Below are positions 37,009 through 54,761 of a stretch of 64,000 nt of DNA, piece by piece. The stretch covers positions 1 through 64,000 of the forward strand of contig NZ_NPKQ01000008.1 in NCBI RefSeq assembly GCF_008329525.1, given 5' to 3'. Below the pieces are notes generated by a model. It was not told the DNA's origin and searched no databases. It saw only the letters and a list, made by a program, of their open reading frames with translations. The number at the start of each line of letters is the position of its first letter. Position 1 is the first letter of the stretch. The stretch is from Tardiphaga sp. P9-11. Lineage in GTDB: Bacteria > Pseudomonadota > Alphaproteobacteria > Rhizobiales > Xanthobacteraceae. The translations under genes were made by a program, and so were the position numbers.

Positions 37009-37914
37009 CTAGGACGCCTCGCTCAATGCGATTTGCATGAGAGCGTCCAGTTCTACGTCCAAGGCCTGCTGCCATGACGGTGCCTCTATGTTGAACAGTC
37101 GGCCAAGTCGGCGATTGTCAAGTCGACTGTTGAGCGGTCGGATTGCCTTGGTCGGGTAGTCCGCGGCCTGAATCGGGGTGATGTCCTTTACCGCAAGATC
37201 CGCGCCGCGCCGCCTCAACCCGGCAACGATCGCTGTCGCGAAACCGTGCCAGCTTGTGACGCCTGACGCCGTCACGTTGATCGGGCCGCGGCTGTCCCTG
37301 AATAGATCGCCAGCGAGTTCCCGTTGGAGAATAGAAGTGACGACGTCCGCGATGATCTGCGCCGATGTCGGCGCTCCAAACTGGTCCGAGACGATCCGCA
37401 GTTCCTGTCGCTCACGCGCCAGGCGGGCTATAGTGCACAGGAAGTTGCGTCCTTCTGCGGCATAGACCCATGACGTCCGCACGATGAGATGGCGGCCTCC
37501 GGCGTCGCGGATCGCCTCTTCGCCGGCAAGCTTGCTCGCGCCGTAGACCGACAGCGGTGCGGGCTGAGAGTCTTCGAGCCACGGCACGTTGCCGGATCCG
37601 TCGAATAAATAATCCGTGGAAAAGTGGACGAGGGGCACGTCGTGACCGGCGGCCCAGCGAGCCATGACGCCGGGGGATTCACTATTGATGCGAAATGCCA
37701 GATCGGGTTCGTCCTCCGCAAGATCCACTGCCGTATAGGCCGCGGGATTGACAATAAGGTGCGGTCGTAGCCGATCGAGAGCGGCGGCAATGGTTTCGGG
37801 ATTCGACAGATCCAGTGCACGGCGATCGACCGTTGCAAGTTCGCCGATCGCTGCAAGGGGACGTTGCAGGGCGCCGCCGACCTGTCCGGTTGCGCCCGTC
37901 AGGAGAATGCGCAT
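37009..37914 (-). CDS. rfbD: dTDP-4-dehydrorhamnose reductase
   Basis: This protein of about 301 residues makes dTDP-L-rhamnose, the last step of the pathway. It is an extended short-chain reductase with RILLTGATGQVG at the N-terminus, HFSTDYLFDGSG, and the catalytic YGASK (Tyr-x3-Lys). The start at 37914 is preferred because it avoids overlap with the epimerase stop at 37916; the frame extends five codons further to 37929. It follows rfbC on the minus strand. The first two pathway genes (rfbB, rfbA) are about 15 kb away at the other side of the EPS genes. Confidence 0.92.
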   Translation of the reverse strand: MRILLTGATGQVGGALQRPLAAIGELATVDRRALDLSNPETIAAALDRLRPHLIVNPAAYTAVDLAEDEPDLAFRINSESPGVMARWAAGHDVPLVHFSTDYLFDGSGNVPWLEDSQPAPLSVYGASKLAGEEAIRDAGGRHLIVRTSWVYAAEGRNFLCTIARLARERQELRIVSDQFGAPTSAQIIADVVTSILQRELAGDLFRDSRGPINVTASGVTSWHGFATAIVAGLRRRGADLAVKDITPIQAADYPTKAIRPLNSRLDNRRLGRLFNIEAPSWQQALDVELDALMQIALSEAS

Positions 37915-37915
37915 C

Positions 37916-38473
37916 TCAGACCGATCCATACTTTGGCAGCGCCGCCGCTATGTCCCTCAATCGAGCGCCTGCTGCATCGCGCGTCGATAAGGTCGGCGCG
38001 CGGATACCCCATTTAATGCCAATTTCCGGGTCATTCCACGCGATGACGGTCTCGTTCTCCGGACTGTAGAACTCATCGCATTTGTAGAAGAAGTCTGCGC
38101 TTTCCGACAGAACCAAAAAGCCATGCGCAAAGCCGCGCGGTACCCAGAGTTGCCGGCGATTTTCCTCTGTCAGGAGAGCGGTCACGTGACGTCCGAAGGT
38201 CGGGCTGCCGACACGCACGTCGACAGCGACGTCGAGTATCTCGCCGCGAAGCACGGTCACAAGCTTTCCCTGCGATCGGGGATTTTGTAGATGCAACCCG
38301 CGTAGGACGTCGCGCACCGATCGCGACAGATTGTCCTGGACAAAAGCGCACTTAACGCCTGCGGCGGCGTAACGCTCCGCTTGAAATGCTTCAAGAAAAA
38401 ACCCACGTTGATCGCCGTGCAGTTTAGGTTGAATGATCAGGACGTCCTGAATCTCTGTCGGGATGACGTGCAT
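37916..38473 (-). CDS. rfbC: dTDP-4-dehydrorhamnose 3,5-epimerase
   Basis: This 185-residue cupin-fold epimerase has QPKLHGDQRGFFLEAFQ, the active-site FVQDNLSRSVRDVLRGLHLQ with catalytic His, and WVPRGFAHGFLVLSE with the conserved His and the downstream Tyr region. It converts dTDP-4-keto-6-deoxyglucose to the L-lyxo keto sugar that RfbD reduces. It is the first gene of a two-gene minus-strand unit, with an AT-rich island about 90 bases upstream. Confidence 0.94.
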   Translation of the reverse strand: MHVIPTEIQDVLIIQPKLHGDQRGFFLEAFQAERYAAAGVKCAFVQDNLSRSVRDVLRGLHLQNPRSQGKLVTVLRGEILDVAVDVRVGSPTFGRHVTALLTEENRRQLWVPRGFAHGFLVLSESADFFYKCDEFYSPENETVIAWNDPEIGIKWGIRAPTLSTRDAAGARLRDIAAALPKYGSV

Positions 38474-39098
38474 CGGGTCAATCAGTTAGCTGTCTACGCG
38501 CACAAATCTCTCAGGATCGCCGGTCAATAATCGGCATGATCGCACCCCGAATAATACTGGAATATTTAATTTGGGGAAGTGAATTTAAATGGCTTTACGA
38601 ATGGGGGGAATTCCCGCCAGTGGGCGAAAAGACAGCTCACGGTCTCCTTGGCGGGGCTATTTGTTATGCCGCTTGTCAGCATTTACGCACCACGGAATTA
38701 CCGGCTATCGTAGGCGGACCCGGCGCGAGAGGCCTTGCACTGGCTTGTGTCGTCTCGACCGCGTCGGTCGGTTCTCTGCCCGGGCGACGGCCTCGCGAAG
38801 TTCATGTAGATTGTTTATGAGGTTCCGCATATGGGCGGATACATCAACCAAACGCTGGGCCGCATCCGTAATACGCGCACATGATTTCACGGTTATCACC
38901 GATGTTTAAACTCTGTTTATCGATCAATTAGTTAGGGGCGCTCTAAAATTATTTGGAAGACGATATGCTGCACTGCAAGTTATAAATACTAAATTCTTTG
39001 TAAATTATAAATGGAAATTTCTATTAATTTATGATCGGTCGATAATCGCCCGGCGATGTTGCATCAGCATCTCACCCATATGGGTGAGTCCCCTATGT
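38474..39098. other. intergenic with two AT-rich islands
   Basis: It contains the 15-mer AATATTTAATTTGGG at 38561-38575 and a long AT-rich tract at 38930-39040. Frames inside (for example 38899-38705 minus, GTG start) are weak. Likely promoter and silencer DNA for rfbC. Confidence 0.4.
38561..38575 (+). repeat. AT-rich 15-mer, copy 2
   Basis: This is an exact second copy of AATATTTAATTTGGG found at 34580-34594. It lies upstream of the rfbC start (opposite strand). See the AT-island finding. Confidence 0.6.
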
Positions 39099-40169
39099 TC
39101 AGATTTTTCCGGTGGGATATCGGCGGGAGAGCGACATCAGTAAACGTAGGGTGCTCAGTTTGGGAAACCAGCGCCTCTTCCGCTCGCCCGGCGCCTGCGA
39201 CCCCGCGGTCGCGCGATGATGGCTTCCCAAATCGAGCAATGCCATTGGCAGCAGGGGGTAGCGGGTCCGCGGAAATCGAGCCTGCAGCAACTGGCGCCAG
39301 ACCTGCAGTCTCGGCACCGGTCGCTTTGGATGGTGAGCGGGCCATTTCACGTCGAAGAGCGTGGTGAGAAGCAGCAACTGCGTTTCAACTGCATTCCGCA
39401 CAAGGGTGCCCGACACCATCGTCATCAGGACATCCCATCGGATGCCCCCGGGTGCGGCGTTGAGCGCCCTCAGATCCAGGAGATGCCTGAGATCGATGCT
39501 GCCCGTCCAGTAGCCGTAATCCTGGAACTGATCGTGCATCACAAGCACCAACGCCTGGAGTTCCGGGGAAGGGACCAGGGCATTGGCTGCGCCCAAGCGG
39601 ATCATCCGCAACTGCGACCGAAGGCCGTCAGGTGTCTGATCGAGAAATGAATGGCCAGGTAGCTCGTTGTGCAAGTCAATCATGCCGACGTCGAGAGGAC
39701 GTTTGAGATCGGCGTACCATTTCTTGTGACGCCCGTCCGTCTCGTAGTCGATGCTGTATCCGATCGCTGCCAACGTCGTCATGGCGGTGTGGACCTGGTC
39801 GGGGCGCACGATCAGATCCAGATCGGACATCAATCTGAGTGCGCGATCGGACTGTCGGCCGGTCGCGAGCATCGCCGCTCCCTTGATGAGGAGCGGGGTT
39901 ATTCCGACTCCGTTAAGTGCGAGGACGGCCTCTTCGAGTTGGGCGCTCAGGCGATCATTTCGGATCGCGTTCCGATCGTGCAGCTCCTTGGCATAGGCGG
40001 CAACCTCCTCGGGTATCGCAGCGCGATGCGATCTGACAAATGCGATCAATGACGGCGTCGTCAATGTGTGGTTCGCGAGAGCGATGAGTGCCGTCCAATC
40101 GGCGCGCGGAGGAATCTCACCGCGGAAGCAAGCACAGAGAGGCAGCAAGGCGCGGCTAAAGCTTGCCAT
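39099..40169 (-). CDS. nucleotidyltransferase-like protein of polysaccharide/HprK-type loci
   Basis: The 356-residue protein has TPLLIKGAAML at residues 91-101 and LRLMSDLDLIV at 111-121. This is the pattern of the uncharacterised nucleotidyltransferase family PF14907, in which a Lys-Gly turn and an Asp-x-Asp pair shape the active site. The remainder is helical with no membrane segment. Family members commonly sit beside HPr-kinase-like and PqqD-like genes in exopolysaccharide and peptide loci; no reaction is established. It overlaps the kinase-like gene by 14 bases, so the two are co-translated and probably act together. Confidence 0.75.
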   Translation of the reverse strand: MASFSRALLPLCACFRGEIPPRADWTALIALANHTLTTPSLIAFVRSHRAAIPEEVAAYAKELHDRNAIRNDRLSAQLEEAVLALNGVGITPLLIKGAAMLATGRQSDRALRLMSDLDLIVRPDQVHTAMTTLAAIGYSIDYETDGRHKKWYADLKRPLDVGMIDLHNELPGHSFLDQTPDGLRSQLRMIRLGAANALVPSPELQALVLVMHDQFQDYGYWTGSIDLRHLLDLRALNAAPGGIRWDVLMTMVSGTLVRNAVETQLLLLTTLFDVKWPAHHPKRPVPRLQVWRQLLQARFPRTRYPLLPMALLDLGSHHRATAGSQAPGERKRRWFPKLSTLRLLMSLSRRYPTGKI

Positions 40170-41292
40170 CGCAGAGCTCGATCAGCTTGACGGTCGCATC
40201 CGCGGCCTCTGAGTAATGGAGAACAAACGAACGCGTATGGGAGACGACGCTTTTGAGTGTCCGGAAGCCTTCGCTCGTCAGTTTGCCATTCGCCGCGAAC
40301 GACGCGTCGACGATGCGCTTGATGGTGTCGAGCTCCCTCAGCTCGACCAGCACCGGGAGCGTGCAGTCCGACGCGCGCTCAAGGAAGATGATCCAATCAA
40401 TCCGAATTGCTCCTTCGTGGAAATTGGGTTCGACATCGAGGTAGCGGACCGCGTGTCCATCCGGCCTATCATGGATCGGGACATCATTCACGTCGGGCCA
40501 GATATCGTCGATCAGCGACCAGGAATTGGCTTTCAGCGTCGGAGCAAATGGTGCGCCCCGGATCGAGCCGTCGGGGCTGATGGTCACAATATCGTCAGTC
40601 GAATATCCGAAGCCCGCATTCAGCAGATGCATCGTGAGTGTGCTCTTGCCGGTGCCGGGGTGGCCGCTGATCAGCATGCCATGAGTCCCCGACGTGACGG
40701 CGGCAGCGTGGAAGATGACGTCACGCGCGTCGCCGGCAAGCAACAGATGCCTGATGACATAGGCCTTGAATGTGGGCGCAAGCTCGTTCATCGCGCAACT
40801 CAGAACCCTGCGGTCGTCATGCATCACAATCGACGTATTGCTGACCTGATAGACCCTGAAGGTCGTCTGCGCGCAGCCAGTCGGGGCAGTCATTGCGATG
40901 AAAAGCGACCGGAGGTGATGAAGGGTCTGAGCATCCGATGCGCGGATTTCAATCGATGTCTGCCCGACCAACGCATTGAAGGCGAAATCCGCGGCGCGAT
41001 GCGGGACAATCAATCCGGCAACCAGCCATTGATTGAGAGCATCCCGCACGCTCTCGCGCGCCCTGGCCGGGCTCAGGCCGCGGTCGACCAGTTGATCGGA
41101 GATGGTTTCGAAAGGCATGGCATCCAGCATGCTGCACCAGATGAAGGCCGCGACGTCATTGAGTTCGAACAGTTTCTGTTCGTCCTCGCTGAATAGCACG
41201 GGCAATTGGTCGACGAGCGCGAACGACGTGCCGATGGCCGGCCGAAGAACGCCGAAAGGCGATTGGGAACCTGGAGGCGCGATGAAGTTCAT
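40156..41292 (-). CDS. PqqD-like domain fused to HPr-kinase-like P-loop protein
   Basis: Residues 22-95 of this 378-residue protein look like a PqqD-type peptide-binding winged domain (LFELNDVAAFIWCSMLD, later LNQWLVAGLI). Residues 190-260 resemble HPr(Ser) kinase: a His-containing strand (FHAAAVTSG), Walker A GHPGTGKST at 210-218, and STDDIVTI where HprK has its metal-binding Asp pair. The HprK-related kinases and PqqD-related proteins described for HPr-rel-A systems are normally separate genes; here they appear fused. The phospho-acceptor is unknown. It is divergent from the 86-residue peptide at 41426 across an AT-rich promoter, suggesting that the peptide is its partner (inference). Confidence 0.72.
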   Translation of the reverse strand: MNFIAPPGSQSPFGVLRPAIGTSFALVDQLPVLFSEDEQKLFELNDVAAFIWCSMLDAMPFETISDQLVDRGLSPARARESVRDALNQWLVAGLIVPHRAADFAFNALVGQTSIEIRASDAQTLHHLRSLFIAMTAPTGCAQTTFRVYQVSNTSIVMHDDRRVLSCAMNELAPTFKAYVIRHLLLAGDARDVIFHAAAVTSGTHGMLISGHPGTGKSTLTMHLLNAGFGYSTDDIVTISPDGSIRGAPFAPTLKANSWSLIDDIWPDVNDVPIHDRPDGHAVRYLDVEPNFHEGAIRIDWIIFLERASDCTLPVLVELRELDTIKRIVDASFAANGKLTSEGFRTLKSVVSHTRSFVLHYSEAADATVKLIELCDGKL

Positions 41293-41349
41293 TATGGACC
41301 GGACGGTGGGTGCGAACGTTCAAAAGGGAGTGTGCAGCTCGGCAGCTCC

Positions 41350-41412
41350 GCTTGACATTATTATGTAAATGGTAGTTAATTAAATCGCAATCCAATATTA
41401 ATAATTTAAATA
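41350..41412. promoter_or_regulatory. AT-rich divergent promoter of the peptide/kinase pair
   Basis: Almost continuous A/T sequence (TTATTATGTAAATGG, TAGTTAATTAAATCG, AATATTAATAATTTAAATATGG) between the divergent start codons. It matches the other EPS-region islands and is a plausible H-NS-bound region. Confidence 0.5.
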
Positions 41413-41425
41413 TGGGCCTTTGCAG

Positions 41426-41686
41426 ATGACAGCCGAAAACGATCCCAGAGTGGAAGGCCAGAATCCACCAGACGAAGATCGGCGCAAGTTTCTCGCTGCA
41501 TGTGGGAAGTTCGCCGTGGTCACTCCGCCGGCCTTGACGATCCTGTTGTCGACATCGCTGAATTCGGAGGCCGTTGCGCGGTCAGGCGGCGGGCGAGACG
41601 GGCCCCCGCGCGATGGTCCGCCGCGTGGCGGCCGGGACCGTGACCTGCTCGAGTGGCTGGAGCGGTTTCTGAGCAAGTTCTTCTGA
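41426..41686 (+). CDS. small Tat-signal-like peptide, candidate partner or precursor
   Basis: The 86-residue product has an acidic leader (MTAENDPRVEG), a twin-arginine-like DRRKFLAACGKFA at 18-30, a hydrophobic run (VVTPPALTILLSTSLNS, 31-47), and a tail of three Arg/Gly/Asp/Pro-rich copies (GRDGPP, RDGPP, RGGRDRD, 56-72), ending LLEWLERFLSKFF. Small proteins with RRKFLAxCGKFAVxTPPA next to PqqD/HprK-like genes recur in alphaproteobacterial loci, as far as I recall. It could be a secreted peptide, a modified precursor, or a Tat-exported structural protein. ATG 41426 is chosen over TTG 41420; the ribosome site is weak. Confidence 0.65.
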   Translation: MTAENDPRVEGQNPPDEDRRKFLAACGKFAVVTPPALTILLSTSLNSEAVARSGGGRDGPPRDGPPRGGRDRDLLEWLERFLSKFF

Positions 41687-42013
41687 CCGGTCGCAGGTTC
41701 GTTTGCGGCTGCGTAGGGACGCTGTTCGGCGGCCGTTCTGCTAAGCGGCGCTGTGCGGTGTGATCGCGCGGCAAACACCCGACATAGGGTGGCATCCGCC
41801 GGGCGTCCCGCGGCGCGCATCGTGCAATCGGCGGGAGGTGCCCGCATGGTCGTGCCGTGCATGGGCGCGAACTGAGCTTGCTGTCCCCGCGGATCATCCG
41901 AAGCTGCGACATCTAAGCCATGCTTTCCTCTTCTCACTGGCACGCCACGATCAACCATCGCGAGGATTTTTTTGAGCGCGGTATGAGCTGGATCTTTAGG
42001 CGGAGGCAGCCGC
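41687..42013. other. GC-rich gap without a gene
   Basis: About 330 bases of high-GC sequence with only overlapping, Arg-rich frames. No family is recognised. It may contain the end of the peptide transcript. Confidence 0.3.
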
Positions 42014-42262
42014 ATGATTGAAGAGGGAATATCGGATCAAATCGATTGGGACGGATCAGCGCTTTACTTCGACGCACGGCTCGGCGGCGGGTATATTCGT
42101 TGCCGCGTGCCGCGACACACGATCGACGCGATCCGTCTCTACAGCGACGCAACAGAGCGCGGGATCGCATCAATCGCTTCCGCATTGTGTAGAATGTTGC
42201 GCCGTTTCATAGCGCGAGCGGGCGCCATGCTGGAGCTGCTTCCCGACGAAGTCCGCGCTTGA
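42014..42262 (+). CDS. small hypothetical protein, DUF1488-like
   Basis: This 82-residue protein reads IDWDGSALYFDARLGGGYIR then CRVPRHTIDAIRLYSD, with a helical C-terminus ending LLPDEVRA. The beta-rich start followed by a short helix resembles DUF1488-like proteins of rhizobia, a weak match by eye. GGAGG at 42002-42006 is seven bases before the ATG, supporting translation. No function is known. Confidence 0.45.
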   Translation: MIEEGISDQIDWDGSALYFDARLGGGYIRCRVPRHTIDAIRLYSDATERGIASIASALCRMLRRFIARAGAMLELLPDEVRA

Positions 42263-42670
42263 TCGGACAGCAGGTGCATCTGAAATTGCTTCTCAGCATG
42301 CCGTACGCGAGATCCGGTCGTGTCGGTCACATATTCGTTAAAGGCCTGTCTTCTTTTGAAAGGATCATCTTCGCGCTGAACCTCTATAATCGTTAGGCCA
42401 TCCACATGAATATCGCGCGAACTGAAATGGGGAGCACTGGCCGATGCCGACCAGTGAAACGCCCCCGATAGAATCGTGTTGCCTGCTTGCGGAAGGGTTG
42501 GCTCGCGTGCCGCAGCCATGCGACAAATTCGCTATCGATCGAGGCACGTATTGAAATCTACGATGACTTGATTAACGGCATGGGAGATCGACCAAAGTCT
42601 CAGGCGGCTATCGTCGGATTCGCACCGTGGGCGGACCAATGGCGCCCATCTACGCGGAGGAGCATAGCGC
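42263..42670. other. gap without a supported gene
   Basis: About 400 bases. Several short frames overlap on both strands and none has a ribosome site plus protein-like composition. No hairpin with a T run was seen. Confidence 0.3.
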
Positions 42671-43069
42671 TCATCGCGACGTCGGCTCTTCATCAACTAC
42701 CAGTTCATGAACACTGTCACCATCCTCTTTCTTGATCTTGAGTTCTTCCAGAACGTGGCCCTTTTGCAGCGCAACGATAAGCCAGCGAGGTTTCTTTCCC
42801 CGACCCGACCAGGTTTCATTCGGCGAGGAAGGATTGAAATACTTCGGCAGCACTTTGGGATATTTGCGGCGTGAAGGGCGGCTTCGAAGGTCACCGGCAC
42901 GGCCCTCATTTCCGGAGGGGTCGGTTTGGTTCAGTATAGCGAGCCTCTTTTCCAGTTCGCGCTTCTCTCCGAGAATGCGATCTGACAGAATCTTCGTGAG
43001 CTCTTCATGGATTGTCCAGAGCTCGTCAAATTGCATAGCGTCCAAATCTGGCAGGTCTGGCTTGGACAT
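42671..43069 (-). CDS. H-NS-family nucleoid protein, copy 1 (HvrA-type)
   Basis: This 132-residue protein has an N-terminal coiled-coil oligomerisation region (FDELWTIHEELTKILSDRIL and ELEKRLAIL, residues 14-46), a linker, then the H-NS DNA-binding block YPKVLPKYFNP and TWSGRGKKPRW (86-96). It acts as a DNA-binding xenogeneic silencer that prefers AT-rich sequence. It lies in the middle of the EPS locus, divergent from a paralogue at 43571 across an AT-rich tract of about 500 bases. It probably regulates local genes and itself (inference). Confidence 0.93.
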   Translation of the reverse strand: MSKPDLPDLDAMQFDELWTIHEELTKILSDRILGEKRELEKRLAILNQTDPSGNEGRAGDLRSRPSRRKYPKVLPKYFNPSSPNETWSGRGKKPRWLIVALQKGHVLEELKIKKEDGDSVHELVVDEEPTSR

Positions 43070-43570
43070 TATTTTCTCAGCATCCTTAGTCGAAATGGAT
43101 CAGCCCAAATCCGTGGACTGCATGGGTAAGGAAATGCACCCTCGGCTGCGCTCTGATCGAGCTAATCCGAGCTAATATTATAATAGCGTCGCATTTTAAT
43201 ATTATCTACACAGTTTTATTTATTTAATGAGATTTCTGTTATTTTATTTGGAATCGTATTCAGGCAATGTCTCAAGCAATTAACCAGCGCGCATCAAGCC
43301 GGACGGTTCGTCCAGCGACCAGGGTCCAGCCGCCAATTGTGCCCAGTCGCTTGGGCAGGCAGTTATACACACCGTAAGCCACAATGGTTTTCTGCATTTT
43401 TCGGGAAAGTTCAATGTTTCTCGATGGTTGGCTTAACTTCGATTATATTGCATAATCGCGGTACGATAATTCTCAATTTGGGCTTGTTAGACTCGGGGAA
43501 TAGCCTTATTTCGGGGATTACTGTTCCCGTAACATGATGCTTTGCTGGATACCGAATTAGGGCGAATCCG
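43070..43570. promoter_or_regulatory. AT-rich divergent region between the two H-NS genes
   Basis: About 500 bases with strongly AT-rich sub-tracts at 43160-43260 and 43430-43550. As the shared upstream region of two divergent H-NS genes it is the likeliest autoregulatory site. An in-frame 66-codon frame inside is not convincing. Confidence 0.5.
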
Positions 43571-43948
43571 ATGTCGACTAAGAAACTAGAGCTGGAATCT
43601 ATGTCGGTTGACGACCTGTGGTCGCTTCACGAAAAGATCAGCAGAATTTTGTCGGCTCGGATCACCTCTGAAAAGCAAGAACTTGAGAAGCGCCTCGCGG
43701 TTCTTAACCGTGGGCGAAATGCAATCAGCGGCGATTCGGTCGAGTCCTTTGATTCGCATGATAAAGTGAGGCGGAAATATCCGCGGGTGTTCCCCAAGTA
43801 CCGGAATCCGGCCATACCGTCCGAGACTTGGTCCGGCCGGGGCAAGCAGCCGCGATGGTTGGTCGCGGCACTCAAGTCCGGTCGCAAGGTCGACGATTTC
43901 CGCATCCGTGAAGAAGCAAGTGCCAAAGGGCGCCGCCAGCGCGCCTGA
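43571..43948 (+). CDS. H-NS-family nucleoid protein, copy 2 (HvrA-type)
   Basis: This 125-residue paralogue of the protein at 42671 has the same coiled coil (DDLWSLHEKISRILSARIT and ELEKRLAVLNR) and the same DNA-binding block YPRVFPKYRNP and TWSGRGKQPRW (86-96). The two proteins align with no gaps through the first 100 residues but differ in most surface positions and in the Lys/Arg-rich tail (KGRRQRA), so they are old paralogues. They may form heteromers. It is transcribed divergently from copy 1. Confidence 0.93.
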   Translation: MSTKKLELESMSVDDLWSLHEKISRILSARITSEKQELEKRLAVLNRGRNAISGDSVESFDSHDKVRRKYPRVFPKYRNPAIPSETWSGRGKQPRWLVAALKSGRKVDDFRIREEASAKGRRQRA

Positions 43949-44283
43949 TGTGGTTGGCGTGTTCTTACGGCCATATCCAACGTTAACCATCCACTGAGTT
44001 TTCCGTCTACTTTTTTCAGAACGGACCTAAGTTTGCTTTGGTTCGTCACTGGAGAATGTGGATGGCTCAAACGGATTGGCACCGGCTTCGAATGGAATTG
44101 ACGGCTCCTCGGGAGTGCGCATCCGCTGCGGAGGGTGGCAAGGGCGAGCCGGGCGATCGTCGATCGCGATCTATCCCTGATAGGGATAGCACCGACGCAT
44201 TGCTTGAGCATATCGCTCTGGCGCTCGGCGATCGTGGTGATTTGTCTTCCTGAAGCCGGTTCGGCTTCATAAATCCCAGGCGC
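43949..44283 (+). other. gap with a weak small frame
   Basis: About 335 bases. A 63-codon frame from ATG 44062 (AQTDWHRLRMELTAPRE, ending HIALALGDRGDLSS) follows a GGAGA and could be a small gene, but support is slight. The C-terminal part is Arg/Ser/Asp-rich. Confidence 0.28.
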
Positions 44284-45741
44284 CTAGAGCGCATTTCGCC
44301 CACGGATCAGCTCGATCGGCGTCTGGAGGAGGATCACAAGGTCCAGACCCAGGCTCCAATTGTCGATATAGCGCAGATCCTGTTTCACGCGTCGTTCGAT
44401 CGAAGCGGCCGTCGGCGTCGGGCCACGGAAGCCCTTGATCTGGGCGAGGCCGGTCAAACCGGGCTTCACTCTTCGCCGATAGGCATAGTTGCGGATCGCT
44501 TTGTCGAATTCATTGTCGTGGGCAATCGCGTGCGGTCGTGGCCCGACAACGGACATGCTGCCCTCGAGCACGTTGAGGAGCTGCGGAATCTCATCGACAC
44601 TCGTTCTGCGCAGCCATCTGCCGAGACGCGTAAGTCGGGTGTCCTGGGCCTTCGCTTGGACGATGGTTGGTCCATCTTCAAGAACCGACATGGTTCGAAA
44701 TTTGTAGATCGTGAATCGACGGCCATTGAACCCGCAGCGTTGCTGCTTGAATAGGACTGGACCGCGGGATTCGAGTTTGACGGCAATTGCGACGATTAGA
44801 AGCAAAGGCGACAGCACCGCAAGCACTGTGACTGACAGGCATATATCCAAGGTGCGTTTTGCGAACAGCTTCACCGGTGACAACGGCACATGCTGGAGTT
44901 CGACGCAATGCGCGCTACCAAGCTCCGTGGAGGGCCTGTAGAAGAGATCCGAGCTGGCTCCCGTCGGAACCAGCCTGACGCGCAGAGGCAGCACCCTGAG
45001 GCCCGCTACGGCACGCTTCAGACGCGACCAGTGGTCAGGGCTGACGCCAAAGAATATCTCGCGGATTTCGGTGTTGCGAGTGTGGTCGATGATCTTTTCG
45101 ATCAGCTCTTCCTGCCGACGCTGGGACGAGCGGGACAGGGGCAGGGTAAAGTGTTTTTCGACAAAGAAACCGAGATCGCTCAGCGTGTTGACGAGGTCGC
45201 GGCCCGCTTCGTCCGTGATCAGGACAATCTTGCGGCCCGAGAAGCGCCGCTCCGCGAGGCCCTTTCGTAGCGCGTCGCGGAGCAGCACGCGTTGGCCGAT
45301 CAAGGTTGTCAGCCCGACAGCCCCAAAGAGAAGGGCGAAATCCCAAGGGATTTCGCCCTTCATTTGTAGGGTGAAGGTGGTGGCGACGAGGAGCCCGAAC
45401 ACGCCGAGCCAGATTGCGCAGACAGCGCGAAACTGAGTGTGGAGTTCGAGCAGCGCCTTTGGCTGATACATGTTGAAGGATTTCGCAACTGCAGCGAACA
45501 CGACCGAAGTCGGTAACGCCACGCCGGCCAGCCGTATGAGGTCCTGCGGCGTTCCGAGCAGAAGCATGTGCGCAAAAGCAGCAACAAAGCTCGCGATAAA
45601 GATCGTGGCGATATCAGCCAGCAGTGCCAGCAACTCGACTGAATCATATTGAACCGGCCACTTCTTGTCCCGGGGCGGGGTACTGGGAAGCCCACCAATG
45701 GGCGCGGCGTCGAACTCTAAGCGTCGCCTCAAGGAATGCAT
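44284..45741 (-). CDS. polyprenyl-phosphate sugar-1-phosphate transferase
   Basis: This 485-residue protein starts the repeat unit on a polyprenyl carrier, as for undecaprenyl-phosphate glucose phosphotransferase. It has several N-terminal membrane helices (about residues 30-130), a CoA-binding-like middle domain, and a C-terminal bacterial sugar-transferase domain: a membrane re-entrant segment (KRTLDICLSVTVLAVL), FKQQRCGFNGRRFTIYKFRT, MSVVGPRPHA and the catalytic Asp-Glu RTSVDEIPQLLNVL. It lies downstream, on the same strand, of the polymerase-like gene across an AT-rich gap. The sugar (glucose or galactose) is not determined. Confidence 0.92.
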   Translation of the reverse strand: MHSLRRRLEFDAAPIGGLPSTPPRDKKWPVQYDSVELLALLADIATIFIASFVAAFAHMLLLGTPQDLIRLAGVALPTSVVFAAVAKSFNMYQPKALLELHTQFRAVCAIWLGVFGLLVATTFTLQMKGEIPWDFALLFGAVGLTTLIGQRVLLRDALRKGLAERRFSGRKIVLITDEAGRDLVNTLSDLGFFVEKHFTLPLSRSSQRRQEELIEKIIDHTRNTEIREIFFGVSPDHWSRLKRAVAGLRVLPLRVRLVPTGASSDLFYRPSTELGSAHCVELQHVPLSPVKLFAKRTLDICLSVTVLAVLSPLLLIVAIAVKLESRGPVLFKQQRCGFNGRRFTIYKFRTMSVLEDGPTIVQAKAQDTRLTRLGRWLRRTSVDEIPQLLNVLEGSMSVVGPRPHAIAHDNEFDKAIRNYAYRRRVKPGLTGLAQIKGFRGPTPTAASIERRVKQDLRYIDNWSLGLDLVILLQTPIELIRGRNAL

Positions 45742-45873
45742 GACTGCCGCCGATTATTATAAAATTAACTATTAAATACAATTCTACGCGACGGTTTAAT
45801 TTGCAAGAAGTTTATTAAATAGCTCGCGAGGTAAATTAAATGATTCTCTCGTAGGCGTGTCCGACGCGCGCGC
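45742..45873. promoter_or_regulatory. AT-rich island between EPS genes
   Basis: It contains repeated TTAAAT/ATTTAAT elements (TTATTATAAAATTAAC, TATTAAATACAATTC, GGTTTAATTTGC, TTATTAAATAGC, GGTAAATTAAATG). It is the upstream region of the sugar-transferase gene. Confidence 0.45.
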
Positions 45874-47856
45874 CTAAGTTAGCTTGGCGCGGAGAACGAT
45901 CAGATAGCCGGGGTCGACCGGGGTGACGGTCTGCTCGACCAGGCGCTTGCCAGCTGAGGACGCCGATCGATAGGCCGCGATCAGGGCAGGGCGCAGGTCA
46001 GGGGACCGCGCGAGCACGAACCGGATGTCGCGGCGTGCCATGTCAGCGAGTTCGTCGTCTCCGCCGATGTCTTTCGAGCGTAGCGCCTGTGCCAGTCGCA
46101 ACGGCAGCAATCCGGCCCGATCGGGAGCGGTGTAGTAGGACATCTTCAGCAGCGCGCCGACATTGCAGGCCTGCATCTTCAATCGTTCGCAGGTGGAAGC
46201 TAACATCAGCCAGGCATCCCCGCGGTGAGGCGCGTAGTGCAAGGTCTTGAGCAGGCTCGTCGAGGTTCTGGCGCTTCGGTCGCCGCTTTCCTCAAGCTCC
46301 AAAGCCTGGTCGGTCCATAGCATGCTTGCGTAAGTGAATGCGCTCTCCGCCCACAGGTCACCGCGCACGACCGCCAGGACCGCAGATCTGTTTGCCCTCT
46401 CCTGATCTTGTCGCGCGACCGTGGCATGCCGCTGATCACTAGGGAGACCGATTTGGGCCGGGCGAGAAACTTCGGGCAACAGGACCCAGGCCCCATGTGC
46501 TGCCAGGAACAGTGCGAGCACCACCAATGCGCCATACGGGCGCCATTTGAACGAGCGGGGTTCGCGCCACTGTCGTGGGGCGGAGACGGCGGAAGCCGAG
46601 GATGTCTCGCCCTTGCTCTGTGCGACGGCAAGCCCGAGCGTGGCGCTCAGGATGACTGACGACGCAAGCGAGAGGCCGCCGCCGGTCGACGATGCCGAGA
46701 TGAGCAGCGCGGCAATACAGCCGGCGCCCGCAGCGGAGTACACGAAGTCCCGGCCGCGTTGCAGAGCGCCTCTCAGCAGGAGGGCTGCCCATGTCGCGGC
46801 GATCAGGACGATTAACCACAGAAAGGGTCGACCCATTTCGATTGTCACCGTCGCGGCAGCCGAAGTGCCCACGGCAGGGGCCTCCGGCCAGTCGCCATAG
46901 ATCGGCGCAAGCGCTGCAAGCGTTCCGGCGCCGACGCCAAGTGGCCTAGCGTCGTCGGTCATGCGAATGATCAGTTCGCTTTCGACGCGACCGGGCATGA
47001 ATGCAATGAAGGTTGAGAGCGCAAGCGCGAGTACGGCGGCGGTTCCGGCTTGCCCCCAGGAACCGAGACGTCCTTTGCGAATGACAAGGACAGCCAGCAG
47101 GAGGCCCGCACCAAACAGGGCAGCAAAGAGTGCGACGGGATCTCCGCTGAGCACCACCGCAGCCAGATTGATGAGTGATGCTGCGAGTGTAGCCGCGGTC
47201 TCAATGGCAGCGGTTGCGACCGGCTTTCGGCTTTGCGATCGGCTTGGCCGCGACCGCTCATATCCCCGGACGATCGCGGCAGCGGTCAGAACGAAGCCGA
47301 ATATGCTGATCGTCTCTGCGGCACTTTGCGCTGCGGGCGGAAGAAACGGAAAAGGCTCCGGCAGTGAAAATGAACTTGCGATCCGCTCCAGCGACACCAG
47401 CGTTGCGATTCCTGCCAGCGCCGACAAGAGCATTTCGGCGCGCCGACGATGTTGCCCGATGAGAACCGCGAGCAGGCCTACCGCGACGGTGCAGGTCAGG
47501 CGGCAAATTGCCAGCATGGTCATTCCGGTATCGATCGTGACGGAGCCGGACGGCTTTTCTCCCAGGGCTGCGGCGGCGCTGCTCCAGATCGGATTCATCA
47601 GCGGGCCGCCCGGCATGGGGACGATCTGCAGCAGCATGATGAGTAGGGCGCCAGCCAGCCCAGCCAGAATGACGGGACTTACAAGGCGCGGCAGTCTGGG
47701 GTGGTCCCCGAAAAGATTCGTCGCGGCCACAATGATGGTGCAAACCGCGGCGACGATCGAGACGATGCCGCCGGCAACGGCGCCCTGGAAAAACAGCAGC
47801 GCCGGGACGGAGCCGATCAGGCCGCAATACAGCAGAAACACAAAGGCCGCGCTCAT
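45874..47856 (-). CDS. Wzy/O-antigen-ligase-like membrane protein
   Basis: The protein is 660 residues with about eleven or twelve hydrophobic segments in the first 450, a large loop, and a soluble helical C-terminus of about 200 residues that looks TPR-like (SLLKTLHYAPHRGDAWLMLAS). This layout is common to polysaccharide polymerases and ligases, but no catalytic motif is clear enough to choose. Location between the sugar transferase and the export lipoprotein supports a role in chain polymerisation or attachment. Start ATG 47856 has an A/T-rich upstream island. Confidence 0.65.
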   Translation of the reverse strand: MSAAFVFLLYCGLIGSVPALLFFQGAVAGGIVSIVAAVCTIIVAATNLFGDHPRLPRLVSPVILAGLAGALLIMLLQIVPMPGGPLMNPIWSSAAAALGEKPSGSVTIDTGMTMLAICRLTCTVAVGLLAVLIGQHRRRAEMLLSALAGIATLVSLERIASSFSLPEPFPFLPPAAQSAAETISIFGFVLTAAAIVRGYERSRPSRSQSRKPVATAAIETAATLAASLINLAAVVLSGDPVALFAALFGAGLLLAVLVIRKGRLGSWGQAGTAAVLALALSTFIAFMPGRVESELIIRMTDDARPLGVGAGTLAALAPIYGDWPEAPAVGTSAAATVTIEMGRPFLWLIVLIAATWAALLLRGALQRGRDFVYSAAGAGCIAALLISASSTGGGLSLASSVILSATLGLAVAQSKGETSSASAVSAPRQWREPRSFKWRPYGALVVLALFLAAHGAWVLLPEVSRPAQIGLPSDQRHATVARQDQERANRSAVLAVVRGDLWAESAFTYASMLWTDQALELEESGDRSARTSTSLLKTLHYAPHRGDAWLMLASTCERLKMQACNVGALLKMSYYTAPDRAGLLPLRLAQALRSKDIGGDDELADMARRDIRFVLARSPDLRPALIAAYRSASSAGKRLVEQTVTPVDPGYLIVLRAKLT

Positions 47857-48069
47857 GCCCGCTCCCTGAATCTAAAATGAGACTGACGGCGGATGTGCTC
47901 GCCACAATATTTAATAATTAAATTAATATAATACGAAATAATTGCGCCCGCAAATCCGGCAGACAATTCGTCCGCTCGGCAGGCAAAATGATAGCCTTGA
48001 TCCGGAAGCGGCTCGGATCGAACTGTTCTGACACGCAGACGACGCGGGGCACATCGGGTGGACGAGTGA
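47857..48069. other. AT-rich intergenic region upstream of the polymerase-like gene
   Basis: It includes the island at 47906-47945 with AATATTTAATAATTAAATTAA. No gene was seen. Confidence 0.4.
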
Positions 48070-48731
48070 TCTGGGGGATCGTACATAGGCTTAGGTCGGA
48101 AGCGCGCTGGCGGGATTGTCCCGACTGCGGACCCTGGCACGACGGTTTATAATTGCTTCAACCGCTGGAGCCGGCAAGGCATCTGGCGCGGCTGTTTGAG
48201 GCGCTGACCGGGCACAGCGGGGTTTGGGGCACGGTGGCGATTGACCCGCCCCATACCAAGGCGCACTGCGCAGCAGCCGGCGTAAAGGGGGTCTTCGCGC
48301 AAGCCATAGGCTCGTCGCGGGGCGGTCTCACCAGCAAGCTCTATGGATCGACCTTGGTCAGGGCCGGTCTCGTGTGTTGCTGATCTCGGCCGTCAATATC
48401 AATAATATGACGATGGCAGCGTCATGATCGGTGCTGCGGCGGGCCGGTTCGACCGGCTAATCGCCGACAAAAGCTATGATACCACTGCCATTCGCGCTGC
48501 CGTTGCGGCGCTCGAAGCAGAGGTGGTCATTCCCTCCACCTTGTCCAGACGCGCCAATCCCACGACCGCAACGCCTATCGCACACGTAACCTCGTCGAAC
48601 GCCCTTGGCGCAGGCTCGAAGATTGGCGGCGCGTCGCCACACGCTACGACAAGATTGCCGTCCGCGACCTCTCCGGTGCCGTTAACGCTGCAATTGTCGT
48701 CTTCTGGTACAATTTGAGTCCGGAGCCTTAG
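48070..48731 (+). mobile_element. decayed IS5-type transposase
   Basis: In successive frames it reads SEARWRDCPDCGP, TVYNCFNRWSRQGIW, LFEALTGHSGVWGTVAID and THKAH-like (PPHTKAHCAAAGVKG), then RLIADKSYDTTAI and RAAVAALEAEVVIPST. This is the IS5 group order of HTH, DDE strands and the C-terminal YDKIAVRD-like and AIVVFWYNLSPEP block, ending at TAG 48729-48731. Frameshifts and stops separate the pieces, so it is inactive. The final stop overlaps the 3' end of the export lipoprotein gene, so the IS may have replaced its original downstream DNA. Confidence 0.8.
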
Positions 48732-49963
48732 CGTCCGCCGGTGATCGGGGTCGGCGTGGTGATAATCGTTGATGCACCGCCGTTGATCGCGGCCTTCAGA
48801 GCGTAACCGTTGGTCGCATAAAGGACCGGGTCGTTCGCTGTGGCCATGATGGTGCGCAAGAAGATCAGGAACTTGGTTGTTTCGACGGAAACTGCGTTCG
48901 AGACAAAGATCACGTCCTTATTCCGAATTTCCAAGGACTGGGTGAGGAAATACCCTCCAGGGTCCCGAAGATTGACGGAATAGATCACCGGCACAATGGG
49001 GCCTTCGAAACGGGAGACGTCGACGCCGATCTGGCGGGCGACCTCCTTTGTTTCACCCCGATAGAGGAATACCGAGCCCGGATCGGCCTGATTGTCGGTC
49101 AGGCCGCCAACTTTGCCCACCGCCTCGGCAAGAGAAATACGCCATGCATCAAACTTGAATTGCCCCTGATTTCCGGCGGCGCCGAAAGCGACAAAGGTTT
49201 GCGCCTCATTGTACAGATAGACGACGTCGGCGGGGAGCACGAAGATGTTGTTGGTAGGCTCATAGACGAGCGCACCAAACGGGACGCTCGCCCGATGACC
49301 CTGGCGCTCCAGCGTGACCCACATATCGTATCCCTGTGAAGCGGGACCTCCTGCGCGGGCGATCACGTCGACAATACGCTCTCCGGATGGGCTCGCCGGA
49401 AAACGGCCCGAAGCTTTCACATCGCCCAGCACGCTGATCAGCGACGTTCGCTGCTCAACTACGGATACCACGACCTGCGGTTCGATAGCGCGGTTCTTGA
49501 GCGCATCGACGATCGTGCGTTGAACTTCAGCGGGGGTACGGCCGCTCGCTCTAATCGGTCCGGCATAGGGAACAGTGATGTTGCCGCCGTCGTCAACTGC
49601 CTGGTTCGGAATGACGACAAAGTTGCCCGGCCGAACGCCGGCTTCGGCGGGAATGAACAGGCCGCCGGCGGCCGCCTCGAAAATCGTCACGCTGACGATG
49701 TCACCGATGCCAAAGCGGAAAGCCTTGGGCGGCGTCCGGTTAGCGAAGGCAGTGGACAGTCTTGGGGTGAACCGTCCCAATATCTGAACAACTTCGGGGG
49801 TCAGGCGCACAAACGCATAAGGGAGGCTATCGGGCTCGGCATTCTGGCCGGACCTGATATCCATGCCCTGTGGTCCGCTGGCCGGCATGATAGAACAGCC
49901 GCCGGCGACCAACGAAAGCGTTGCGATCGAAAGTATCGCCAGATGATGCCGAAAAATGTTCAG
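48728..49963 (-). CDS. Wza-like polysaccharide export lipoprotein
   Basis: This outer-membrane polysaccharide export protein has a lipobox LVAGGC, then a Poly_export domain (FGIGDIVSVTIFEAAAGG, VPYAGPIRASGRTPAEVQ) and two SLBB-like domains (ISVLGDVKASGRFP, ISLAEAVGKVGGLTDN). The annotated minimal start TTG at 49912 lies inside the signal peptide. To include the full signal (NIFRHHLAILSIATLS) translation must begin at CTG 49961-49963, which has GGGGG upstream; there is no ATG in the frame because a stop precedes it. It follows the Wzc-like kinase by about 150 bases. Confidence 0.9.
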   Translation of the reverse strand: MNIFRHHLAILSIATLSLVAGGCSIMPASGPQGMDIRSGQNAEPDSLPYAFVRLTPEVVQILGRFTPRLSTAFANRTPPKAFRFGIGDIVSVTIFEAAAGGLFIPAEAGVRPGNFVVIPNQAVDDGGNITVPYAGPIRASGRTPAEVQRTIVDALKNRAIEPQVVVSVVEQRTSLISVLGDVKASGRFPASPSGERIVDVIARAGGPASQGYDMWVTLERQGHRASVPFGALVYEPTNNIFVLPADVVYLYNEAQTFVAFGAAGNQGQFKFDAWRISLAEAVGKVGGLTDNQADPGSVFLYRGETKEVARQIGVDVSRFEGPIVPVIYSVNLRDPGGYFLTQSLEIRNKDVIFVSNAVSVETTKFLIFLRTIMATANDPVLYATNGYALKAAINGGASTIITTPTPITGGR

Positions 49964-50112
49964 GAGAGCCCCCAGCTACGCGACTATTCGGAGCGTAGAC
50001 TCGCATTCCTGGTTGATTCAAACCAGCTACTTATTGTTCGCTTTTAAATAGAGATTCGCAGTGTGGCCTCGCTGCCACATAAATTTAGCAAAATCCCCGT
50101 AGAATTACCGCC

Positions 50113-52437
50113 TTAGGTCTCCTGATCGACATAACCGTACCGGCCGTAGTGCTCGGTATTATAATAGTCACTGTGATAGCTGTCGTATCGCTTCAGCATG
50201 TTCATGTCGGTCTTGTTGAGCACCGCGCCGAGGATGGCCTCGCTTACATTCGGCGCCGTGTGCAACGCATGCTGGACCACGTCGATCTTGGTGCGGCCCC
50301 ATTCCACTACCAGCACGAAACAATCCACCAGCGCCGTCGTCGCCCGGACGTCGACGATGGGGGCGAGCGGGGGCAGGTCAACGATGACATAGTCGTAGCT
50401 GGCCCTGAGCTTATCGAACAGCGCCCTGGTCGGCTCTGCCGAGAGCAGCTCGCTGGTGTGAAACAGCGGGCCCTTCTTGGCGATGGGCAGCAAAGTCAGC
50501 CCGGTGCTCTTGTCGTGCCAGGTGACCTCGTCGAGCTGCTTGGCGCCGGAGATGATCTCGATCAAGCCGCTGGTGGCCGTCGGCGCGAGGTTCGTGGATA
50601 ACGACGGGTTGCGCAGGTCGCAATCCACCACGATGACGCGCTTTCCGGCATGGGCGATCAGCTGGGCGAGGGAGGCGGCGATAGTCGATTTGCCTTCATT
50701 TGGTAGCGACGATGTGATGCCGACGATCTTGTTCGACGAGAGGCTCTGGTTGAGGTCGATCGCCAGTTTGACGGCACGGATGGACTCGGCAAAGCGCGAC
50801 AGCGGCATCGTTGTCGCGGCCCAATAGGCGGCGGAGCGCCGCGAGATCATGCGGCTATCGTTGCCGGACGCAGGCAGGCTCGCCGATGCGGGCGGCGTAA
50901 GGTCCTTGAGCAGCGGCACCAGCGACAGGCAGGGGAGGCGTAACGCGGACTCCAACTGGTTCGAGGTGCGGAACACGCGGTCCATGACGTCGCGCAGCAG
51001 GCCAAGGCCGACGCCGAGACCTATGCCCGCCGCAAGACCCATGGCGAGGATAAGCGACGATTTCGGCTTGCTCTTGCTGGGCGGCGGCGACGCCGAGGCG
51101 ATGATGCGGGCGTTGGCGCTCGGGAACGACTCCTGCTGCACCGAGCCCATGTAGCGCTGCAAGAAACTATCATAGAGGCTGCGATAGCTCTTCGCGCTGG
51201 TCTCGAGCTCGCGCATGGTCAGCTCTGCGGAATTGGAGCCGCGCGAACGCGACACGGCAGATGCGAGCTGGTCCTCGATCTGCTTTTGCTTTTGCTTGGC
51301 AACCTCGTAGTCGCTGCGGCTGGTTTCCGCGAGGCGGCGGACTTCGTCCACGATCGAGGTGCGGATGTCGCGCATGCGGTTACGCAGGTTGATGACGGCG
51401 AGGTGGCTCTTGCCGAAGCGCACTGACCAGTCGGCTTCGCGTCGCGCAAGGTCGAGATATTGCTGGCGGAGCGTGTTGATGATGCCGCTGGCCAGCACCT
51501 CCGAGCCCGGCGCATCGATCCCGGTGAGGCTCAAGCTGTCCGGTAAGATGGCGTGTATCACCTCGTCAAACCGGTTCAGTCGCGCCATGCTGTCCGACGT
51601 CAGGGCACGGGCCGCGACGAGCCGGCTGTTGAGTTCGGCGATCTGCTGGTCGTCGATCAGCTTGCCGTCGCTGACGACGATGTTGTTCTCCGCCTTGAAG
51701 GCGTTGACGGCGCGTTCGGCGCTCAGGGCCTGCTGGCCGAGTTCGCGCAGCCGGTCCTGCAGCCAGGCGGTGGCGTTCTTGTTCGCCTCAAATTTTGCGT
51801 TCAACTGGTCGAGTATATAGGTGTCGGCTACGGCATTGGCGATTTCCGCCGCCCGCACGGCGGTGCTGGCATTGTAGCTTAGCTCGATCACATTGCTCAT
51901 GCCCACGCGCGTGGCGGCGAGGCGGTCCCCAAAAGCGAGCGCAAGTTGGTCAGCGGTGGCTGCCTTGTCTGCGTTCTCGTCCAGCGGCGCCATGGACAGC
52001 CAGTTGCGCACCTTGCGGAAGAAAGCATGCATGCGGGCCGAAGAGGGCTTGAACTCGGCGTCGTCATAAAGCTTCAGCTTCTGAATGACCGATATCGCCA
52101 CGGCCTTGGATTTCAAGACCTGAAGCTGGGTCTCGATCTGCACGGAATCGATATTGGCCTCGGCCAGCAACGACTGCTGCTGGATGAACGGAGCCTTCTC
52201 GTTGATGAGCAGGATCTTGACCTGCCCGGTGTAGGTGGGGGTCGCCGTCTTCAGATAGATGCCGGCAATGGTGACCGTCAGGATCGTGGAGAAGATGATG
52301 ACGGCGTATTGGCGTCTGAGCACGCCAGCAACGAATTCGACTAACTTTCCAACGCCGCCGCCGTCGCCGTCGCCGCTGGGAGCGCCGTCGAACAGCGGCA
52401 TTATCCGTTCTGTCTGCAGAATATTGCTTTGTAGCAT
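50113..52437 (-). CDS. polysaccharide co-polymerase with tyrosine autokinase (Wzc/ExoP-like)
   Basis: This 774-residue protein controls chain length and export. It has a membrane helix at about residues 44-62, a periplasmic Wzz-like coiled-coil region to about 450, a second helix near 460-481, and a C-terminal BY-kinase: Walker A SSLPNEGKST (575-584), Walker A' VIVVDCDLR (601-609), Walker B YVIVDLPPL (683-691). The tail after residue 750 has seven Tyr (RYDSYHSDYYN, EHYGRYGYV), the usual autophosphorylation cluster. Together with the Wza-like lipoprotein it forms the trans-envelope export machine. The start at 52437 faces the AT-rich divergent promoter to rfbB. Confidence 0.95.
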   Translation of the reverse strand: MLQSNILQTERIMPLFDGAPSGDGDGGGVGKLVEFVAGVLRRQYAVIIFSTILTVTIAGIYLKTATPTYTGQVKILLINEKAPFIQQQSLLAEANIDSVQIETQLQVLKSKAVAISVIQKLKLYDDAEFKPSSARMHAFFRKVRNWLSMAPLDENADKAATADQLALAFGDRLAATRVGMSNVIELSYNASTAVRAAEIANAVADTYILDQLNAKFEANKNATAWLQDRLRELGQQALSAERAVNAFKAENNIVVSDGKLIDDQQIAELNSRLVAARALTSDSMARLNRFDEVIHAILPDSLSLTGIDAPGSEVLASGIINTLRQQYLDLARREADWSVRFGKSHLAVINLRNRMRDIRTSIVDEVRRLAETSRSDYEVAKQKQKQIEDQLASAVSRSRGSNSAELTMRELETSAKSYRSLYDSFLQRYMGSVQQESFPSANARIIASASPPPSKSKPKSSLILAMGLAAGIGLGVGLGLLRDVMDRVFRTSNQLESALRLPCLSLVPLLKDLTPPASASLPASGNDSRMISRRSAAYWAATTMPLSRFAESIRAVKLAIDLNQSLSSNKIVGITSSLPNEGKSTIAASLAQLIAHAGKRVIVVDCDLRNPSLSTNLAPTATSGLIEIISGAKQLDEVTWHDKSTGLTLLPIAKKGPLFHTSELLSAEPTRALFDKLRASYDYVIVDLPPLAPIVDVRATTALVDCFVLVVEWGRTKIDVVQHALHTAPNVSEAILGAVLNKTDMNMLKRYDSYHSDYYNTEHYGRYGYVDQET

Positions 52438-52735
52438 CGAAAGCCCACCAAGTCCCTGAAGTGTGTCGGGCAGGAATACGCGTTCATGTCAAATATACCG
52501 GCGCCGCCAACCGGCACTCGGTTGCTTGTGCATTTAATATCATTATTTTCGATAAAGAAAGTGGTTGCTTAAATTAAATATTTATAGTTTAATTCGGAGG
52601 TTGCGAGTGGCGCTTGGCCGATTTTCTTTTGCTCCTACCTACCTGTTTTATCGACATAATCTGGCTTGGCTGCTTTGCGGGGGCGTGTCGTGATGATTTT
52701 GTGGGCATCCGCTCAAATTAAAAATGAGGCGTTGC
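52438..52735. promoter_or_regulatory. divergent AT-rich promoter between wzc-like and rfbB genes
   Basis: About 300 bases with an A/T island at 52525-52605, including AATTAAATATT (52572-52582, the inverse of the motif at 34580) and TTTAATTCGGAGG. It must hold promoters for the export and rhamnose operons. Confidence 0.5.

Positions 52736-53879: not shown

Positions 53880-54761
<882 letters not shown>

Follow-up and report, generated by a model that had tools for sequence, protein, structure and literature searches.

Genes at the locus

The window analysed here is the 64,000-nucleotide forward-strand stretch of contig NZ_NPKQ01000008.1 from Tardiphaga sp. P9-11, to which all window coordinates refer. 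It holds a trio of genes, namely a minus-strand pair for a kinase with an N-terminal PqqD domain and a PF14907 nucleotidyltransferase, and a small peptide gene that faces them. We propose that the trio is probably a leader-guided peptide phosphorylation system of the ribosomally synthesized and post-translationally modified peptide (RiPP) type, by analogy with described systems, in which the PqqD domain would act as a RiPP recognition element (RRE). The paired genes overlap by 14 bases and the 86-residue peptide starts with an ATG at 41426 in the opposite direction, the open reading frames (ORFs) lying exactly where a preliminary description of this DNA had placed them. The AT-rich gap that it described is also evident, with an AT content of 58% in 41293-41425 and 71% in 41344-41419 as compared with 40% for the whole window. 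The features are as follows.

40156..41292 (-): RRE(PqqD)-HprK-like kinase, 378 residues (PF05402, TIGR04352, AlphaFold model, Foldseek)
41008..41199 (-): PqqD/RRE domain, kinase residues 32-95, proposed leader-binding module (PF05402, likeness to 5v1v_A)
40183..40737 (-): HprK-like kinase domain, residues 186-370 (TIGR04352 alignment range)
40639..40665 (-): P-loop GHPGTGKST, kinase residues 210-218 (sequence; invariance of G213, G215 and K216)
39099..40169 (-): PF14907 nucleotidyltransferase, 356 residues, proposed capping or glycosylation enzyme for the phosphate (PF14907, invariant residues, model)
41426..41686 (+): precursor peptide, 86 residues (conserved family, purifying selection on the leader, co-occurrence with the kinase)
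41477..41578 (+): conserved leader, peptide residues 18-51, DRRKFLAACGKFAVVTPPALTILLSTSLNSEAVA (invariant positions in 39 of 39 leaders)
41582..41584 (+): Ser53 codon, proposed phosphorylation site directly past an AxA-like motif (Ser in 39 of 39 leaders; parallel with Ser3 of LppA)
41579..41683 (+): proposed core peptide, residues 52-86, a variable tail ending LLEWLERFLSKFF (pN/pS contrast; tails differ among paralogues)
41293..41425 (no strand): divergent intergenic region, AT-rich toward the peptide (base composition)

Domains and structure of the two enzymes

The kinase had been described as a PqqD-type domain joined to an HPr-kinase P-loop, and the profile searches bear this architecture out. 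PF05402 (PqqD) matches residues 32-95, within the stretch 22-95 where such a match had been anticipated, at an E-value of 2e-6 (28.5 bits against a cut-off of 23.4), and it is detected at E<=0.001 in 20 of 24 kinase homologues. TIGR04352 (HprK_rel_A) aligns with residues 186-370 at E 6e-16, but its 58.3 bits remain below the cut-off of 200; all 24 homologues match this model at E<=0.001, the best at E 8.5e-32. TIGR04353 (PqqD_rel_X, cut-off 35 bits) showed no match to the kinase at E<=1, the PqqD domain being fused here. The suggested relation to the HPr-rel-A models thus holds for the E-value of TIGR04352, and not for its cut-off or for TIGR04353. In the 24-row homologue alignment H195, G213, G215, K216, D233, K254 and R276 are invariant, and we presume catalytic roles for these residues.

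The AlphaFold model of the kinase has a predicted local distance difference test score (pLDDT) of 88.6 and a predicted template modelling (TM) score of 0.83. In a Foldseek search against solved structures, phosphoenolpyruvate (PEP) carboxykinases occupy ranks 1-35, with TM scores of 0.40-0.49 of the query and root-mean-square deviations of 7-10 Å, and HprK/P chains come after them. At rank 44 stands the lasso peptide RRE TbiB1 with its leader peptide (5v1v_A; E 1.1e-4, TM score 0.86 of the target), which superposes on the kinase model with 2.7 Å over 88 columns.

The nucleotidyltransferase is a clear member of PF14907 (E 4.3e-31, 108.8 bits against a gathering score of 31.2), and its K96, D116 and D118 are invariant in 13 homologues. 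Since the structural neighbours of its model (pLDDT 86.5) are nucleotidyltransferase (NT)-fold proteins at low global scores, only one of them at E<=0.001, any chemistry assigned to it is tentative. FKRP, an NT-fold protein that moves a phospho-sugar, is among these neighbours at E 0.007-0.02. Two other loci touch on this enzyme. At L158 (compared loci carry L numbers and genomes G numbers) a sugar nucleotidylyltransferase (PF00483; 11724-12887(-)) directly precedes the kinase and nucleotidyltransferase genes, which hints at a nucleotide-sugar donor. A 764-residue frame at L170 (7987-10278(+)) has nucleotidyltransferase-like and RRE-kinase-like regions and is possibly a fusion of both enzymes.

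The precursor peptide family

No family match to the window peptide was obtained at E<=1 in the Pfam and NCBIfam-type model scans. Orthologues adjoining kinase relatives nevertheless keep the leader DRRKFLxxCGxFAxVTPPAxTxLLSTSL. Across eight kinase-adjacent orthologues, the ratio of nonsynonymous to synonymous differences (pN/pS) is 0.07-0.12 for segment 18-54, where synonymous sites are heavily diverged (pS 0.63-0.78), and 0.13-0.46 for the tail. These substitution patterns indicate a conserved gene under selection and not a chance ORF.

A leader alignment was prepared from 38 of 47 distinct matches (29 bits or more) together with the leader of the window, giving 39 rows. RR, FL, G27, F29, A30, T33 and P35 (window numbering) are invariant in all of them, and the motif [VIA]T[PA]Px[LIVM] is likewise found in 39 of 39. 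Ser53 (alignment column 40), directly past an AxA-like motif, is also invariant in 39 of 39, and this placement would make it about position 1-2 of the processed peptide. Nine matches were left out of the alignment (L022, L027, L102, L099:12014, L100:12231, L171 and three in L165); judged by eye, L022, L027, L102, L099 and L171 retain the Ser, L100 has Thr in its place and L165 lacks it.

Beyond the leader the peptides diverge. The tail types include ...WLERFLSKFF of the window, a recurrent NNGxGNGGxDG[SV]P...R, and Gly-rich, Thr-repeat and Cys-rich forms, and tails differ among paralogues while the leader stays conserved. Such a conserved leader with variable tails is, by its sequence, the architecture of a RiPP precursor. 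The RDGPP repeats remarked upon in the preliminary description were discarded as a family feature, most orthologues being without them. Its twin-arginine-like start fared in a mixed way, as RR is invariant in all aligned leaders and twin-arginine translocation (Tat) signal models, present in both libraries, matched none of 32 peptides at E<=0.1; these short models are insensitive.

Some members of the family deserve separate mention. The genome of the window itself encodes a second peptide with the same leader (L034:8743-8967(+)), with the tail NNGWGNGGGDGSPNGKDD, on an 18-kb piece that has no kinase. Long Thr-rich repeat tails, plausible sites of heavy modification, follow the leader at L027:11708-12343(+) and L028:4661-5359(+). 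At L165:9429-10487(-) there are three tandem peptides with a related leader and Cys-rich tails, while the kinase and nucleotidyltransferase lie on another contig (L166). Orphan peptides at L097:9769-10026(-) and L102:9789-10088(-) are situated directly upstream of same-strand transport genes; the neighbours at L097 are an outer-membrane efflux protein and an ATP-binding cassette (ABC) exporter, and the ABC-exporter and HlyD-like cluster members at these two loci suggest a type I secretion route for some peptides.

Co-occurrence of kinase and peptide

The kinase and the peptide travel together, and one enzyme pair is accompanied by several precursors. Among ten close kinase homologues, the peptide is directly divergent in eight. 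In a family sample of 198 genomes, 14 have the kinase and 13 of these the peptide, which occurs in no other; in the fourteenth (G114) a divergent leader peptide lies just under 1 kb upstream of the kinase (E 3e-9). A Bradyrhizobium sample of 146 genomes has the kinase in 39 (35 intact close kinases, three divergent ones and one fragment) and the peptide in 36, and the two are common to 35 genomes, which is every genome with an intact close kinase. Immediately upstream of the three divergent kinases there are RR-leader peptides, divergent as well, and G619 holds broken kinase and nucleotidyltransferase fragments with no clear peptide (L186:9073-10442(+)). In a class sample of 385 genomes, ten strong kinases and ten strong peptides were found, eight of them shared, where the cut for strong (about 130 bits for kinases) was set after the lists were seen; at tool thresholds the corresponding numbers are 74 kinase matches, 13 peptide matches and eight shared. 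The peptide models were built partly from genomes of these samples. The suggestion that the peptide is the partner of the kinase, and the expectation of a peptide near homologous kinases in other genomes, are both supported.

The numbers are unequal on the two sides. Kinase genomes of Bradyrhizobium have a single kinase match each (E<=1e-30), and every peptide genome has 1-12 peptide matches, partial ones included. Of the 35 peptide matches in the family sample, 22 are more than 10 kb from the kinase, among them the second peptide of the window genome. The peptide nearest to the kinase is about 50 kb away in G024 and about 63 kb away in G167.

Where Bradyrhizobium kinases have no adjacent peptide, a conserved ORF of about 81 residues lies upstream of the kinase (L023:8563-8808(+), with equivalents in L024 and L066-L071). 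Inspected as a possible stand-in for the precursor, it was dismissed, since the leader is missing from it.

Distant kinases and the HPr-rel-A systems

A distant set of 20 kinase loci (L114-L133, about 1.5 kb of flank each) was searched with a hidden Markov model of distant leaders, whose training members, first picked by regular expressions, were all below 60% identity. An RR-leader peptide was the top match (E<=6e-4) at 16 of the 20 loci, the misses being L114, L122, L128 and L133. Among 100 control pieces of 3.6 kb, taken from genomes other than those of the 20 distant loci, none matched at E<1e-3 and one at E<1e-2. The model also matches some peptides of the window family (L090, E 6e-6). 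Around the kinase relatives L073-L086, mostly outside Alphaproteobacteria, no leader match was obtained at E<1e-3.

Thirteen of the 20 distant kinases were scanned with NCBIfam, and nine (L114-L120, L122, L125) pass the TIGR04352 cut-off. The leader peptide is present at seven of these nine loci; the four kinases that fail the cut-off (L123, L124, L129, L131) all have the peptide. At L120 the gene order is peptide, PqqD_rel_X (40 bits, cut-off 35), HprK_rel_A (395 bits, cut-off 200) and PF14907. The known RRE motif [YW]xxPx[LVIAFY] occurs in 12 of 21 distant leaders. For the curated families HprK_rel_A and PqqD_rel_X we are aware of no reported substrate. As leader peptides accompany seven of the nine kinases that pass the cut-off, the so far unassigned substrate of HPr-rel-A is probably to be found in these peptides. 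The window system shares with HPr-rel-A the combination of kinase, PqqD domain and PF14907 nucleotidyltransferase, and differs from it in a kinase that scores 58 bits against 200, in having no TIGR04353 match and in the fusion of PqqD at the N-terminus.

In term searches of open-access literature no paper was found that names HPr-rel-A, TIGR04352, TIGR04353 or the HprK-related kinase, nor one that joins PqqD, HPr kinase and exopolysaccharide, or twin-arginine, RiPP, precursor peptide and PqqD.

Proposed pathway and related systems

In the pathway that we favour, the RRE half of the kinase would bind the peptide leader, as the structural likeness to the TbiB1 complex and the co-occurrence suggest. 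The contact would be around VTPPA[LIVM], the presumed equivalent of [Y/W]xxPx[L/V/I/A/F/Y] in the leaders of lasso peptides and LPPs. The HprK-like half would then phosphorylate Ser53 next to the leader/core junction, to which the invariance of this residue and the parallel with LPPs (see below) point. The PF14907 enzyme may transfer a sugar or nucleotide onto the phosphate, capping or glycosylating it, a step for which PsmN and the fold are the precedents. The Tat-like layout of the leader (RRxFL...AxA), which no family model supports, suggests that it directs export and is then removed, so that a modified peptide of about 35 residues would be freed. One enzyme pair would serve several precursors. 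The earlier idea, recognition and modification of this peptide by the kinase, has good comparative support as regards the pairing, and the modification itself is a prediction; the multi-copy precursor family, the likeness to LPPs and pseudomycoidin and the HPr-rel-A peptides had been missed.

The closest published relative (PMC13381572) is the system of linear polyphosphorylated peptides of Gram-positive bacteria (LPPs; lppA-K-B-S-D-N), described there as restricted to Bacillota, with an RRE, an HprK-like kinase, a nucleoside triphosphate (NTP) transferase, a SpI-like peptidase and an exporter. The shared traits are an HprK-like kinase, an RRE and an NTP transferase in one cluster, precursors with a conserved N-terminus and a variable C-terminus, a patchy distribution and a place in polysaccharide loci, which are capsular in LPPs. 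LppK polyphosphorylates core Ser3 of LppA beside the leader cleavage site, and a phosphorylated Ser53 would be its analogue. LPPs differ in that the RRE is discrete and not fused to the kinase, and in the leader, which is YxxPxVLxHQxIxFETxxS as compared with VTPPA and a Tat-like layout in the window. Neither a SpI-like peptidase nor an MsbA-like exporter was found among the 15 window genes scanned (37009-56247; other small ORFs lay outside the scan). Many window-type precursors lie away from their enzymes, and the hosts are Alphaproteobacteria instead of Bacillota.

The phosphorylated lasso peptides paeninodin, pseudomycoidin and that of S. yanoikuyae share an HprK homologue that phosphorylates a Ser. 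According to PMC9266682 and PMC8498205, PsmK phosphorylates pseudomycoidin and PsmN adds hexoses, as assigned by gene knock-outs, so that a nucleotidyltransferase adding hexose to phosphate is a further likeness; a lasso precursor is also phosphorylated in the proteobacterium S. yanoikuyae, there by an HprK-like kinase, so that such peptide kinases are already known in Proteobacteria. The lasso Ser is at the C-terminus, and the candidate Ser of the window lies where leader and core meet. Neither a macrolactam cyclase nor a B2 protease turned up in the scan of 15 window genes, and a lasso pathway was therefore rejected. Judged at the sequence level, the window system is new in its RRE-kinase fusion, its leader and its many precursors per enzyme pair.

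Several observations weigh against the proposed pathway. The motif [Y/W]xxPx[L/V/I/A/F/Y], given for lasso and LPP leaders in PMC13381572, occurs in none of the 39 leaders of the window family, where the Tyr position is V/I/A and the Pro is invariant. The distant-leader model sees the peptide of the window itself only at E 0.0089. At eight Bradyrhizobium kinase loci (L023, L024, L066-L071) a peptide is missing for about 10 kb around the kinase; of the class-level kinases without a shared peptide, none was found for G430 and in G510 the leader is cut by the contig end. Conversely, a clear peptide occurs without the fused kinase in G629, G311 and G319, and in the last of these, kinase-like, PqqD-like and PF14907 proteins occur as a discrete set. 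The Fisher probabilities of the co-occurrence, 2e-19 (family), 4e-28 (Bradyrhizobium) and 2e-13 (class), ignore phylogeny. TIGR04117, a radical S-adenosylmethionine (SAM) target family, matches eight of 32 peptides weakly (best E 0.0063), so that another modifier or modification may be at work. No leader peptidase or peptide exporter was found among the 15 window genes scanned. The second step is made uncertain by the deletion of lppN, which was without visible effect in the host used (PMC13381572).

Surroundings of the trio

The trio is located in an exopolysaccharide/rhamnose locus. One flank consists of RmlD- and dTDP-sugar-isomerase-type genes, and the other of sugar transferase, Poly_export, Wzz/AAA, GDP-mannose dehydratase-like, nucleotidyl transferase and UDP-glucose dehydrogenase genes, homologues of several of which recur at the kinase loci of relatives. 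Among the few neighbours scanned at L157 (three), L017 (one) and L161 (five) there are no glycan genes, and the exopolysaccharide neighbourhood of the system is not universal. The setting recorded in the preliminary description is thus confirmed for the window and found again in relatives, and its further suggestion of control or decoration of the glycan is weakened by these three loci; where exopolysaccharide genes surround the locus, the system may have a surface-glycan role.

Two H-NS-type proteins (PF00816) are encoded beside the trio, at 42671-43069(-) and 43571-43948(+). A cluster of H-NS-type proteins recurs in 16 of 41 compared loci and possibly silences a mobile unit.

Alternative explanations

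The alternative that survives best overlaps with the proposed pathway and departs from it in the second step, phosphorylation being the only modification (an LPP-like polyphosphate) and PF14907 adding no sugar. LppK places several phosphates on a single Ser, and lppN could, as said, be lost without visible effect in the host used (PMC13381572). Set against this are the hexoses of pseudomycoidin, assigned to PsmN by gene knock-outs (PMC9266682, PMC8498205). The structural neighbourhood of FKRP (E 0.007-0.02) and the PF00483 gene directly before the kinase at L158 are also on the side of a sugar, and we regard phosphorylation alone as possible, though doubtful.

It is unlikely that the peptide is a membrane-anchored adaptor which localises or activates the kinase, the true substrate being an exopolysaccharide enzyme and the trio a regulator of glycan synthesis. 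The sugar transferase, Poly_export, Wzz/AAA, GDP-mannose dehydratase-like, UDP-glucose dehydrogenase and rhamnose genes around the trio, and the recurrence of several homologues at the loci of relatives, would suit such a role. However, an adaptor accounts poorly for peptides that have variable tails, lie at scattered sites and reach 12 matches in a genome, and the domain set matches peptide-tailoring systems; a role confined to exopolysaccharide is further weakened because no glycan gene appeared among the few neighbours at L157, L017 and L161.

Still less probable is that the peptides are plain small proteins exported by Tat, with an island or regulator in common with the kinase and no enzyme-substrate relation to it. 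The RRxFL and AxA layout and the copies far from the kinase are in keeping with this idea, whereas none of the 32 peptides matched the (short, insensitive) Tat models, the leader seems conserved beyond the needs of a signal peptide, and the co-occurrence spans several families, unlinked copies included. Finally, that the enzyme is an HPr kinase regulating carbon use is hardly credible, since in spite of the fold and P-loop similarity to HprK/P the RRE fusion and the tight coupling to the peptide speak against it, and identity with the HPr kinase of the phosphotransferase system was rejected because TIGR00679 scores 24 bits, far below its cut-off of 240.

Implications

The leader-guided phosphorylation system proposed here supplies HprK_rel_A and PqqD_rel_X with a family of candidate substrates, together with a putative target residue and leader motif. 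On balance we lean towards a broader view, in which the HPr-rel-A systems and the fused form together make up a large class of phospho-(glyco)peptide pathways in Gram-negative bacteria that has yet to be named, with one kinase-nucleotidyltransferase pair, precursors with Tat-like leaders across the genome, some heading type I secretion operons, and exported peptides with interchangeable tails. The natural RRE-kinase fusion may be useful for peptide engineering. If the proposal is true, up to 12 precursor matches would share one enzyme pair in Bradyrhizobium, and LPP-like phosphorylated linear peptides would extend from Bacillota to Alphaproteobacteria such as Bradyrhizobium.

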